In this document: piece after piece, positions 34,345 to 39,659 of the stretch
Numbering within the stretch: position 1 is the first letter of the stretch
Layout: the number at the start of each line of letters is the position of its first letter
Source: Acidiferrobacter sp.
GTDB taxonomy: Bacteria > Pseudomonadota > Gammaproteobacteria > Acidiferrobacterales > Acidiferrobacteraceae
Assembly (NCBI GenBank): GCA_027449165.1
Contig: DAIDMD010000111.1
Coordinates: 1 to 39,659, forward strand
Direction: 5' to 3'
Length of the DNA: 39,659 nt
Notes under the pieces: generated by a model
Seen by the model: the letters and a program-made list of their open reading frames with translations, nothing else
Told to the model about the DNA's origin: nothing
Database searches by the model: none
Position numbers and translations under genes: made by a program

Positions 34345-34432
34345 GGAGAGGTGGCAGAGCGGTCGAATGCGGCGGTCTTGAAAACCGTTGAAGGGCAACC
34401 TTCCGGGGGTTCGAATCCCTCCCTCTCCGCCA
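34345..34432 (+). tRNA. tRNA-Ser (UGA anticodon)
   Basis: An 88-nt cloverleaf with encoded CCA. The acceptor arms are GGAGAGG (34345-34351) and CCTCTCC (34422-34428), followed by discriminator G and CCA. The anticodon loop CTTGAAA carries TGA at 34379-34381. A long variable arm (class II) and the T-arm GGGTTCGAATCCC are clear. It reads UCN serine codons. Directly after it, base composition changes and mobile-element debris begins. Confidence 0.97.
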
Positions 34433-35108: not shown

Positions 35109-35148
35109 AAAAAACGGGTTATCGTCGTTTGAGTAATGGGGGGTGCAA

Positions 35149-37311
35149 ATGGCGCAGAAAGAGGGTACGGCAATTGGGTCGAATGTACCTCCCGCACACC
35201 CGGAGTTCGAGCCGCTACGCGTACCTCAGCGACTGCTTGCGCTGGCTTTTCTGGTTGTAGCGCTATGGTATCTGTTCTGGCGTTTGGGTACGTTTAACCC
35301 AGATGCGCCGGTGTTTTCCGTAGTCCTTTACGCTGCTGAATGCTGGGGGTTGGCGAGTCTTTTATTGCATCTATTTATGACCTGGCGGCTGAGCGTACGT
35401 CGAGCGCTCCCAGTGCCGCATGGTCTATCAGTGGACGTGTTCGTCACCACCTACAACGAGCCCGTTGAGGTATTGCGCCGTACCTTGGAAGGCGCATTAG
35501 CCATCGACTACCCCCACCAAACCTGGTTGCTTGACGACGGCAATCGTGTTGAGATGCGCGCGCTGGCGGCAGAAATCGGGTGTCTATATTTGGCGCGCGA
35601 GCACAACACCAACGCCAAGGCCGGTAACCTTAACAACGCTCTGACACACAGTACCGCTCAATTTGTCGCGATATTCGATGCTGACCACGTACCTAGCCCG
35701 CAATTTCTCAATCGAACGCTGGGCTATTTTTCCGACGATTTGCTGGCCTTCGTACAGACCCCCCAGGGATTTTACAATCTGGATTCGTATCAGAACCGTG
35801 GTAGCGGGCGTTTGCGCTGGGGCGAGCAGGGCCTGTTCTTCCAAGTAATACAGCGCGGCAAGGACTATTGGAACGCGACCATGTTCGCCGGCACCTCGGT
35901 GGTGTTGCGGCGTAGCGCACTGGACGAGATCGGCGGATTCGCCACCGGCACGGTCACGGAAGACCTTCACACAACACTGCGGCTGCAGAAAAAGGGCTTC
36001 CGGTCTGTATATCACGCCGAGGCGCTCGCTTTTGGGTTGGCGCCACAAAGCCTGCGCGCTTTTTTGAACCAGCGGCTGCGCTGGGGGCAAGGAGCCGTGC
36101 AGGTCTGGAGGCAAGAGGGGCTGGTTTTCAGCCGCGGCCATACCCTGCCACAGCGCATTTGTAATTTGGCGTCGGTGCTAACTTATTTCGACAGTTGGCC
36201 GCGCATTTTCCTCTATCTTACCCCAGGAATTGTTCTTATATCCGGAGTCATGCCCATCGCGGTGTTCAATATTGAATTCCTGATGCATTTCCTGCCGTAT
36301 TATCTACTCAATTTTTGGGTGTCCGAAGAGGTCACCCGTGGTTATGGCAACACTCCGTACATTGAGCAGTACAATCTTTTGCGCTCATTTATATACGCAC
36401 GCGCCACGCTGGCGCTCTTCCGCCGCAAACATATCGCATTTAAGGTGACCGATAAGGGGGCTGTAGGGCGTCCAGCTCAAGACAGAGAGCTGTTATTCCC
36501 GCAGATACTGCTGGTAGGGTATTTGGTGATCTCGATTGTCTGGGGGCTGTGGCGCCAGTCGAACGAACCCCAACTGCCTTTGGGGGCGTTGGTTGCAAAC
36601 ATAATCTGGGCCGGATTAACAGTGCTCCTGGCGGGTGGGGTTCTGGCATTTGCCCGGCAGCGGCTGGTTCGACGGCAGGATTACCGGTTTCGCGTGCCCG
36701 TGCTCGTGCGACTGGATAGCCCCGCGGGGCCGGTGTTCGGCGTTGGCGATGATATTTCGCCAGGTGGTATGCGCGTATATTCGACCTTTTCCGGGGCTGC
36801 TGGTGCGCTCGCGCAAGGCAATTTATACCTCCCGTCGGGGGAGCTTGGTTTTCAGGCGCGGGTGGTCGCTCCGTTGGAGCCCGCTGGCAGGCGTATGAGC
36901 TTGCAGTATGTTTGGCCTGGATCGCGGGCCCCGACGCTCTTGCTGCATTTTCTTTATGGCTCCGATCTGCAATGGCGGATACAGAATTTATCTGATCGGT
37001 TCCGGCCCCCACTGGAGTGGTTGTCCGATGTTTTTAGCCATCGGCGCAAGGTCGTTTTGCCTGAAGCCAAACACTGGACAGCCCTTATGAGAAGGAATGC
37101 GCACGATCGACCTACGGGCCTGATAACCGACTTTGGCGACAAGGATGAAGCGCTGGTGCTTAGCTACGCGCCGCTGGGCACAGCAGATCTTTCCGACTTA
37201 ATCCTCTGGAATAGAGACCATCAGCAAGGGGTGCAGGGCAACCTGTTTCCGATTGATCTGGGCGGCGCGCTGATAGGGCGACCGCTCTATCTGTATCGGT
37301 TGGCCAAATGA
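35149..37311 (+). CDS. bcsA: Cellulose synthase catalytic subunit, BcsA-like, with PilZ domain
   Basis: Processive GT2 synthase of the inner membrane, probably making beta-1,4-glucan. The 720-residue protein has two N-terminal membrane helices, then the glycosyltransferase: Asp129 (LLDDGNR), Asp177/Asp179 (FDADH), Asp272 (TED) and QRLRW at 308-312. More helices follow, with the gating-loop motif FKVTDKG at 431-437, a BcsA hallmark. The PilZ domain has RRQDYR (508-513) and DISPGG (535-540), the RxxxR and DxSxxG c-di-GMP contacts. ATG at 35149 follows GGGGGG; GTG at 35143 is an alternative. Codon use is less GC-rich than the housekeeping genes. No bcsB, bcsC or bcsZ is seen. Confidence 0.9.
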   Translation: MAQKEGTAIGSNVPPAHPEFEPLRVPQRLLALAFLVVALWYLFWRLGTFNPDAPVFSVVLYAAECWGLASLLLHLFMTWRLSVRRALPVPHGLSVDVFVTTYNEPVEVLRRTLEGALAIDYPHQTWLLDDGNRVEMRALAAEIGCLYLAREHNTNAKAGNLNNALTHSTAQFVAIFDADHVPSPQFLNRTLGYFSDDLLAFVQTPQGFYNLDSYQNRGSGRLRWGEQGLFFQVIQRGKDYWNATMFAGTSVVLRRSALDEIGGFATGTVTEDLHTTLRLQKKGFRSVYHAEALAFGLAPQSLRAFLNQRLRWGQGAVQVWRQEGLVFSRGHTLPQRICNLASVLTYFDSWPRIFLYLTPGIVLISGVMPIAVFNIEFLMHFLPYYLLNFWVSEEVTRGYGNTPYIEQYNLLRSFIYARATLALFRRKHIAFKVTDKGAVGRPAQDRELLFPQILLVGYLVISIVWGLWRQSNEPQLPLGALVANIIWAGLTVLLAGGVLAFARQRLVRRQDYRFRVPVLVRLDSPAGPVFGVGDDISPGGMRVYSTFSGAAGALAQGNLYLPSGELGFQARVVAPLEPAGRRMSLQYVWPGSRAPTLLLHFLYGSDLQWRIQNLSDRFRPPLEWLSDVFSHRRKVVLPEAKHWTALMRRNAHDRPTGLITDFGDKDEALVLSYAPLGTADLSDLILWNRDHQQGVQGNLFPIDLGGALIGRPLYLYRLAK

Positions 37312-37323
37312 GGTCGGAAAACG

Positions 37324-37337
37324 GGCGAAAATTCGCC
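37324..37337. repeat. Short inverted repeat after the cellulose synthase gene
   Basis: GGCGAA and TTCGCC with a 2-nt centre lie 12 nt after the bcsA stop. There is no T-run; termination is doubtful. The rest of the 209-bp gap before the next gene shows nothing I recognise. Confidence 0.25.
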
Positions 37338-37520
37338 GGAGCGATAATTCTGCCAGGATATGGGTGTGTCGCGGCCAGACACCGGCGCCATAGCCTATCC
37401 AGATTATCAGGATATATGTCTGAAGCCCAACAGATTGCGCGGTCCAAAGGTGCATGGCGGTCAGGGTTAGTACTCGCCCAGGCAGTAGAGCAACATCTCG
37501 AACCACAAGGGGGAAGGATC

Positions 37521-38228
37521 ATGCGGCGCGCTATATTCTGGACGGCTGCGTTGGTGGGGATGCTTGCGGCGGCGAGTCCAGCCATGGCTCAGCCGCTGCT
37601 GCTGGGAGGCAGCGAAGTAGCTCCGCAAACCTCCTACAGTTATTTCGGGGCGGCCCTGCCTTTTGCTGGGGCGCGCTTGGGGTCTGGTTGGTATGGGACA
37701 GTTTTCGCCAATTATCTAACCTATCATTACACTATTACAGAAAATAACTCACCGGTGACAGTAGGGGTCGCGGCCCGCGGCGTACAGGGTGGCGTGGGCT
37801 ATGCTTGGCAGGGGGCTGCCTATCAGCTGGCCTTATCTGGCGCTTTGGGTTATCAGTACTTCTCGGTTCATCCTAGCTTCGCGGCGGGAGGAGGGCCGTT
37901 GGGCAGCACCTTAACCTTTATGCCGCAAATCCAGGCGCGCTACGATTTTACTTCGAGCTTATATGTCAGCACCATAGCCAACTATTCGTTTGGTCCACGT
38001 GCGTACTGGAGCCGTTTTCGGGGAGGGTATCGGCCGGTGCACTGGTTGAGCCTCGGGCCTGAAGCGATTTTTCTTGGAGGGGTCAATTATCGCATTCGTC
38101 AGGTCGGTGTCTTTGCCGGCATTGCGCTGGGCGATGGTTGGAGCGTTGTGGGGGAAGGGGGGTTAACCTACGCCAGCGGTTTACACAGAACCGGCTACGC
38201 GAGCCTCTCCTTTGCCAAAACAGAATAG
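37521..38228 (+). CDS. BcsS-like outer-membrane beta-barrel protein
   Basis: A 235-residue secreted protein with a clear signal peptide (residues 1-23, cut after PAMA). GGGGGAAGGA just before the ATG fixes the start; the frame open upstream is not used. The mature part alternates short beta strands with aromatic and Gly residues (SYFGAALPFAG, YGTVFANYLTYHYTI, GVQGGVGYAWQGAAYQL) and ends LTYASGLHRTGYASLSFAKT. The pattern ARGVQGGVGY, then WLSLGPEAIFLGGVNYRIRQVGVF, resembles the BcsS family found beside cellulose synthases. Together with the BcsA-like gene this suggests an exported glucan pathway. Assigned from pattern memory, so moderate. Confidence 0.65.
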   Translation: MRRAIFWTAALVGMLAAASPAMAQPLLLGGSEVAPQTSYSYFGAALPFAGARLGSGWYGTVFANYLTYHYTITENNSPVTVGVAARGVQGGVGYAWQGAAYQLALSGALGYQYFSVHPSFAAGGGPLGSTLTFMPQIQARYDFTSSLYVSTIANYSFGPRAYWSRFRGGYRPVHWLSLGPEAIFLGGVNYRIRQVGVFAGIALGDGWSVVGEGGLTYASGLHRTGYASLSFAKTE

Positions 38229-38629: not shown

Positions 38630-39355
38630 TCAAGTAGAGAAACGGTAATTGCGCAGAATTTCCAGAAAGCGGGCGATCAACTCCGAATGCCCTTGGATGT
38701 GGAAGATGTAACGCGGCACGTCCCGTTCCGTGCTGCGAGCCATGAACGGCTCCCCCCAAAAGCTCAGGAGGCACTCCGGCCGCCCCGTAGACGCCGAATC
38801 CGCCACGATCAGGGAGATGCTTTCCTGGTTGCGGATCCAGGTAGGTTCCTGAACTTTATGGGCGCCGGGGCAGGCGCGAATGGTGGGCAGGATTTCTTCC
38901 CAGAGACGGCGCTGATCTTCGTCCAGAATGAAGCGGATGATTGTGACGCGCGGATTCTCCAGGGCTGGCCGGAGCAGGGCGTCAAACAAGGCCGGGGGCC
39001 TGTACATGGAAAGGCAGACATTAAACCAGGTCATCTCGCCACTGGCGTGAGCCAGGAACTCCGTGCTGACCTTGCGGATCCGGTTTGGCCCGACGAGCAC
39101 GGCATCGGGAGGCAGGAGACCCGCCTCGATTTCGCGCAGACTCGCCTGCATCGCCGCGAGCCGGTCCTCCAAACGCTCCATGGCCCCTTCTCGGCGCATA
39201 TCGCGTAGAAAGAGCAGAGCGATGAGCGCAACGGTCAGGGCAAGCAATACCTCGCCCTGGATCAGGTGCAAGAGTTCCAAGACGATGGCCGCGACCGCCG
39301 CGATAACGCCAGCAACGGCATCCCATTCGAGATGGAGCAGGCGTTTCATGCGCAT
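38630..39355 (-). CDS. Uncharacterised two-TM membrane protein with coiled coil and soluble domain
   Basis: I do not recognise the family. The start at ATG 39355 follows GGAGGG with 5-nt spacing and gives 241 residues; a second ATG two codons later is possible. It has two closely spaced hydrophobic helices (about 13-32 and 35-50), a charged heptad-like stretch (about 57-80, MERLEDRLAAMQASLREIE) and a soluble domain. Recognisable strings in that domain are FLAHASGEMTWFNVCLSMY, RVTIIRFILDEDQRRLWEEI, FWGEPFMARS and HIQGHSELIARFLEILRNY. The strand-helix pattern with HIQGHSELIARF faintly recalls degenerate phospholipase-D-like folds, but no HKD motif is present. Confidence 0.75.
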   Translation of the reverse strand: MRMKRLLHLEWDAVAGVIAAVAAIVLELLHLIQGEVLLALTVALIALLFLRDMRREGAMERLEDRLAAMQASLREIEAGLLPPDAVLVGPNRIRKVSTEFLAHASGEMTWFNVCLSMYRPPALFDALLRPALENPRVTIIRFILDEDQRRLWEEILPTIRACPGAHKVQEPTWIRNQESISLIVADSASTGRPECLLSFWGEPFMARSTERDVPRYIFHIQGHSELIARFLEILRNYRFST

Positions 39356-39659
39356 TGTCACCCTCCCATTACGACGTCGTGCCCCGCTAAAACAGGTGGC
39401 GTGCGCCGTCAAGTGGGCGCCCATCGGTTTCCAGTCGGGAATCGATGGGGGCAGAAGGCCGATCCAAGGCCAATTCCATCATACCAAATGCGGCGGTTCA
39501 GAGACACACAAGGGTCAGCTGCGTATTCCGATGAAGATGACCGCCGATTCCGGCGGATGGTGACCGCGGATTCCGGTCGAAGGTGACCGATCAATCCGGG
39601 CGAAGATGACCGGCCAGAGAGCCGGTCGCGCTGAATGACTTCTACACTACATAATCACA
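39356..39659. other. Gene-free right edge with an IS21-like end
   Basis: No gene is supported in the last 304 bases. The outstanding content is a four-copy tandem array at 39526-39616 followed by GAATGACTTCTACACTACAT and AATCACA at the edge. Read inward from the edge this begins TGTGATTATGTAGTGTAGAA, like the TG-starting ends of IS21-family elements. No istA or istB is in the window. Confidence 0.5.
39526..39616. repeat. Four tandem copies of a 22-23-bp repeat
   Basis: Copies start at 39526, 39548, 39571 and 39594 and share the pattern TTCCGGNCGAAGRTGACCGNN (first copy 22 bp, others 23 bp). GATGACCG or GGTGACCG recurs in each. Multiple short repeats near the termini are a known IS21-family feature and probably bind the transposase. 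Confidence 0.75.

Follow-up and report, generated by a model that had tools for sequence, protein, structure and literature searches.

BcsB is regarded as indispensable for the polymerization of cellulose, and BcsC is regarded as the channel through which the polymer exits. The locus studied here encodes a PilZ-bearing, BcsA-like synthase followed by a BcsS-family barrel protein, and it raises the question of whether two such proteins could make and export a glucan by themselves. The original prediction had described the locus as a minimal cellulose-type module without BcsB, BcsC, or BcsZ, and this description was confirmed by the intact reading frames, a match to PF17036, and a search of the genome.

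Composition of the locus

The window (the whole stretch of 39,659 nucleotides that was analyzed; GC content 66%) belongs to a genome (G000) of 2.08 Mb in 171 contigs that is 77% complete. The features used below are as follows; “clade” refers to the group of related synthases described in the next section.

34345..34432, + strand: tRNA-Ser (UGA), flanking the low-GC segment
34447..35067, − strand: remnant of an IS200-type (Y1) transposase, situated between the tRNA gene and bcsA (PF01797, E 1.5e-8, partial coverage of the ORF)
35149..37311, + strand: BcsA-like family-2 glucan synthase, 720 aa (intact frame; Pfam, TIGR03030, and motifs)
35755..35766, + strand: QTPQ motif, residues 203-206 (QTPH at the same place in BcsB-dependent BcsA)
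36070..36084, + strand: QxxRW acceptor motif (QRLRW); Q, R, and W do not vary within the clade
36439..36456, + strand: FxVTxK gating-loop motif (FKVTDK); F, V, and K are the same in all clade members
36673..36768, + strand: PilZ c-di-GMP motifs, RxxxR at 36673-36687 and DxSxxG at 36751-36768; R509, R513, S537, and G540 invariant in the clade
37308..37520, + strand: spacer between bcsA and bcsS, 213 bases, open in the bcsS frame
37521..38228, + strand: BcsS-family protein, 235 aa, with a signal peptide and a predicted 12-strand outer-membrane beta-barrel (PF17036; AlphaFold2)

The synthase frame ran uninterrupted from the ATG at 35149 to the TGA at 37309-37311 (a GTG at 35143 could also serve as the start). 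An ATG at 37308, which had been overlooked in the original prediction, shares bases with the stop codon of bcsA and would lengthen the bcsS frame by 71 codons at its start (306 aa). The start at 37521 is preceded by a Shine-Dalgarno-like GGGGAAGGATC and followed directly by the signal peptide. The spacer at 37308-37520 is unusual, as bcsA and bcsS abut or overlap in most relatives. Divergence from the nearest relative was 0.33, 0.26, and 0.57 at the first, second, and third codon positions, respectively; this concentration at third positions indicates that the protein has been kept by selection.

A search for a c-di-GMP riboswitch upstream of the pair found none, and scans of the locus for promoters and terminators gave results near chance level. 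No periplasmic scaffold was found to be encoded near the pair. Downstream, at 38630-39424 on the − strand, lies the gene of a protein of 264 aa, which is hydrophobic near its N-terminus and has no Pfam family over the cut-off and no PHROG match.

Recurrence of the pair

The synthase belongs to a clade that was found in 12 genomes of several families (G000, G023, G032, G048, G053, G054, G156, G593, G754, G768, G648, and G458). These genomes were gathered from searches of the relatives, the order, the class, and one public contig, together with a phylum-wide BcsS search. A sharp gap in score set the clade off, with E < 1e-180 for its members and E > 1e-90 for every other match; the window synthase was 42–58% identical to its 11 clade relatives. 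The gene bcsS was located directly downstream of bcsA in all 12 genomes, with a stop/start overlap in several, and it was the only neighbor common to distant loci except for serS, which was shared by the window and one related family. Proteins with GGDEF domains were encoded in every clade genome (19 matches in G000), and two of the loci featured GGDEF genes a few kb downstream.

Some members departed from the common arrangement. G754 harbored an additional copy of the synthase. In G053, a single metagenome-assembled genome, synthase and barrel occupied a single 993-codon frame (L023 7820-10801), and the sequence joining them resembled a signal peptide; this frame could be a natural fusion that is cut by signal peptidase, or it could be an assembly error. 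In G054, a gene for a putative lipoprotein of family GH26 (30.6 bits) was located directly downstream of bcsS (L021 13650-14804), and its predicted product could be a glucan-trimming enzyme.

Searches for BcsB, BcsC, and BcsZ

Genome-wide searches for BcsB (PF03170) and for the BcsC barrel (PF05420) yielded no match in any of the 12 clade genomes. In the window's own genome, none of bcsB, bcsC, and bcsZ was found, no GH8 enzyme (the BcsZ family) was present, and no complete bcs operon, which would have counted against the original prediction, was located elsewhere. GH8 genes were present in 4 of the 12 clade genomes, including G593, where one was situated about 8 kb from the pair. Because the window's genome is 77% complete, the absence of BcsB and BcsC rests on more complete relatives: G023 (99%, one contig), G458 (100%, three contigs), and G032, G593, and G648 (95–99%).

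The same searches were applied to control genomes. BcsB was detected in 19 of 19 genomes having a QTPH-type BcsA; these included the genus-mates G005, G008, and G009, whose divergent BcsB was picked up by the profile at E about 1e-32. BcsC was found in all eight of the conventional genomes tested. Two of the genus-mates (G005 and G009) contained bcsA, bcsB, and bcsC, and the third (G008) contained bcsA and bcsB. None of the six BcsC-bearing control genomes tested contained BcsS.

Classification of the synthase

The synthase matched the GT2 and cellulose-synthase families of Pfam as well as PilZ (28 bits, cut-off 22.5), and its profile matched E. coli-type BcsA structures at E 2e-123. All of the catalytic and c-di-GMP motifs that had been ascribed to it were present: DD, DADH, TED, QRLRW, and FKVTDK in the GT2 core, and RxxxR and DISPGG in PilZ. 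The GT2 core, QxxRW, the FxVTxK gating loop, and PilZ are shared with the BcsA of the BcsA-BcsB-BcsC-BcsZ systems of E. coli and Rhodobacter sphaeroides. Unlike those systems, the window pair has neither BcsB nor BcsC, and its synthase has QTPQ for QTPH, occupies a separate branch, and scored 402 bits against TIGR03030 (CelA), which is below the equivalog cut-off of 699. The final residue of the QTPH acceptor motif of characterized cellulose synthases was Q throughout the clade. A second GT2 gene of the genome (C39) was considered as a BcsA and was rejected (29% identity over a part only).

In a maximum-likelihood tree of clade, conventional BcsA, and BgsA-type sequences, the clade was monophyletic (support 100) and sister to conventional BcsA (99), with BgsA-type sequences outside (99–100). 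The original prediction had called the system “reduced or alternative”. The second term was well supported by the 12 genomes without BcsB and BcsC and from the selected frames; the first was half right, because the synthase represents a separate, deep branch and not a conventional BcsA that recently lost its partners. Within the clade, the window synthase paired with that of G593, which is outside its order, and not with members of its own order; this pairing fits horizontal transfer.

Channel residues that separate cellulose from curdlan synthases have been catalogued; RsBcsA His276 corresponds to Gln237 of CrdS, and CrdS has Q at H276 and K at L309 (PMC6821405). Mapping onto RsBcsA by aligned columns showed that the clade residues at H276, N298, Y302, and L309 are Q, Q, F, and K, respectively; the first three are common to BgsA-type sequences, and the fourth is as in CrdS. 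The residues at N412, A465, and E480 (A, E, and N) are mostly particular to the clade. As four acceptor-channel residues are curdlan- or mixed-linkage-like, the product need not be cellulose, and its linkage may be 1,4, 1,3, or mixed. BgsA-BgsB of Sinorhizobium meliloti (mixed-linkage) and CrdS also resemble the window pair in the absence of BcsB. Recognized PilZ motifs are absent from BgsA and CrdS (PMC6821405). BgsA-type sequences, which were assigned by a position beside HlyD, by similarity, and from PMC6821405, differ from the clade in having a HlyD partner and in falling outside the grouping of BcsA plus the clade.

AlphaFold2 returned a poor model of the synthase (pLDDT 58), and no conclusion was drawn from its fold. 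Residues about 610-720, after PilZ, are outside the CelA model and beta-rich in that poor model; they may constitute a clade-specific cytosolic domain.

The predicted BcsS barrel

The 37521-38228 product matched PF17036 (CBP_BcsS) at E 1.2e-12 (48.4 bits, cut-off 24), in line with the proposed relation to BcsS. With a 21-sequence alignment, AlphaFold2 predicted a 12-strand barrel behind a signal-peptide-like helix (pLDDT 90.3), and this model had the KdgM-type fold. Its best PDB match was KdgM (Foldseek E 8.6e-9, Z 19.2, rmsd 2.8 over 169 residues, 14% identity), further matches were VhGalP (Z 17.9) and NanC (Z 16.9), and other 12-strand barrels (the autotransporter BrkA, FapF, and intimin) scored within 2 Z of KdgM, all Z values being from a re-ranking of the Foldseek matches only. 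With those barrels so close behind, the fold hints at a sugar channel and does not fix the function. Against PDB sequences, the BcsS profile gave no match with an E value of 1 or lower, and no kinship to KdgM was found at the sequence level. KdgM and NanC are known as oligosaccharide uptake porins and are not known to be tied to a synthase; they share the 12-strand barrel and a similar size with BcsS, and KdgM differs from it in sequence (the 14% identity above). The known exporters of exopolysaccharides are wider than a 12-strand barrel.

BcsS was nearly absent from the open literature searched, in which the relevant mention was its name in a list. Many PF17036 genes of alphaproteobacteria stand alone, with no bcs genes nearby (L053, L059, L061-L065, and L067-L072). 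These solitary genes imply that the family has other roles, and the name BcsS may be too narrow.

BcsS was also encountered in operons that contain BcsB. The gene order was bcsA-bcsB-bcsS-bcsZ-galU on A. caldus mpAca1.1; bcsA-bcsB-bcsS, then a convergent bcsZ, on Aquabacterium olei pTB101; and bcsS-bcsA-bcsB-bcsZ at six alphaproteobacterial loci. The two plasmids were found in a plasmid search with the window BcsS (the A. caldus protein was 41% identical); the same search with an alphaproteobacterial BcsS as query gave no matches. A BcsC profile, which was built from seven sequences and detects both genus-mate control loci (L025 and L026), found no BcsC on the stretches fetched around the A. 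caldus, Aquabacterium, and six alphaproteobacterial loci. Thus, these operons resemble the window pair in that BcsS is beside the synthase and BcsC is not nearby; they differ in that BcsB and BcsZ are retained and, for the alphaproteobacterial ones included in the tree, in that the synthase is a QTPH-type BcsA. Alphaproteobacterial cellulose operons without BcsC have been reported, and a novel export route was suggested for them (PMC7112194). That report, the BcsC-less operons with BcsS, and the BcsC-bearing controls without it together make BcsS a natural candidate for the exit, and for the missing exporter of BcsC-less cellulose operons that was flagged as unexplained (PMC7112194).

Proposed mechanism and alternatives

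Judged from the sequences, there is about an even chance that the pair makes and exports a linear beta-glucan under the control of c-di-GMP, with no BcsB and with BcsS as the exit in place of BcsC. In this mechanism, c-di-GMP would bind to PilZ, and the gating loop would be freed. The synthase would bind UDP-glucose and polymerize glucose without BcsB, and the chain would be pushed through the synthase's own membrane channel, as in BcsA. After crossing the periplasm, the chain would leave through BcsS, whose predicted KdgM-fold, 12-strand barrel would replace the BcsC barrel in the outer membrane. The suggestion that the barrel takes part in export, made in the original prediction, gains support from the KdgM-like fold and from the place of BcsS in BcsC-less operons; the role remains putative. 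Several observations count against the mechanism: the narrowness of a 12-strand barrel, the charged residues in the lumen of the BcsS model, the close scores of barrels with other functions, the PF17036 members far from cellulose genes, and the lack of a periplasmic scaffold near the pair to account for passage across the periplasm.

Next to those operons, the pair is best read as a minimal form that appears to dispense with BcsB as well. Among secretion systems of the cellulose type, it represents a new variant that is real and conserved, and its functional reading is moderately supported. More tentatively, BcsA-like plus BcsS might be the smallest known two-protein, c-di-GMP-gated polysaccharide secretion system of double-membrane bacteria, with BcsS as a new class of small exporter replacing BcsC and with a synthase lineage that never needed BcsB. 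A clade that is devoid of BcsB and BcsC and always accompanied by BcsS offers a simple system in which to ask what BcsB does.

A route like that of XcsA or BgsA, in which a HlyD-type adaptor and a TolC-type channel would be encoded elsewhere and BcsS would be an accessory (a surface anchor or sensor), is somewhat unlikely. It has a precedent in the BcsB-less PilZ synthases with HlyD partners of cyanobacteria; in the XcsA-XcsB (HlyD)-TolC system, as in the proposed one, a PilZ-bearing synthase functions without BcsB (PMC12430437). BgsA-type genes adjoin HlyD genes, and Q276, Q298, and F302 are common to their products and the clade. However, the XcsA system features a HlyD-like partner and TolC, and no use of BcsS has been described for either XcsA or BgsA. 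A HlyD gene was adjacent in 6 of 6 BgsA-type loci inspected, whereas none was present among the neighbors scanned at the clade loci, and BcsS, not HlyD, accompanied the synthase in all 12 genomes.

BcsS could instead form a closed barrel with a role in anchoring, sensing, or modifying the polymer at the outer membrane; the glucan would then exit otherwise or stay in the periplasm. Conserved residues face the lumen of the BcsS model (Arg, Lys, Glu, Asp, Tyr, and Trp), and the charged ones among them, R60, R165, K/R167, E181, and D187, could close the barrel instead of forming a pore. Orphan PF17036 proteins without cellulose genes, and the adhesin and autotransporter barrels among the top structural neighbors, are consistent with such a role. 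The best structural match is nevertheless a sugar porin, and BcsS is found next to the synthase in operons without a BcsC channel; we therefore regard a closed barrel as unlikely.

That the pair is what is left of a complete bcs operon in decay, or that its BcsB and BcsC are too divergent to detect, is very improbable and, as to decay, was rejected: the incompleteness of the window's genome and the bcsA and bcsB of three genus-mates (with bcsC in two) would allow it, but both frames are intact with codons under selection, the pair recurs, the absence holds in the near-complete G023, G032, G593, G648, and G458, the same model detected the divergent genus-mate BcsB, and the genus-mates' synthases are on another branch.

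Genomic setting of the pair

The GC content was 0.565 for the synthase and 0.576 for bcsS, with GC3 values of 0.63 and 0.60, respectively; GC3 of the other window genes was mostly about 0.85–0.91 (doxX, 0.81; the ORF at 38630, 0.74). As the low GC content is common to both genes, and as they lie beside a tRNA-Ser(UGA) gene and an IS200-type transposase fragment, they were probably acquired together. The pair is proposed to be a self-contained and probably horizontally mobile module. A tRNA-Ser(UGA) was also located beside the pair in four genomes that belong to a related family (L019 11722-11811, L020 12330-12417, L021 13330-13417, and L022 121-210). The order in the window is serS-tRNA-bcsA-bcsS, whereas that in the four relatives is serS-bcsA-bcsS-tRNA, so that the pair is situated on opposite sides of the tRNA; repeated insertion of the pair near one tRNA is possible.
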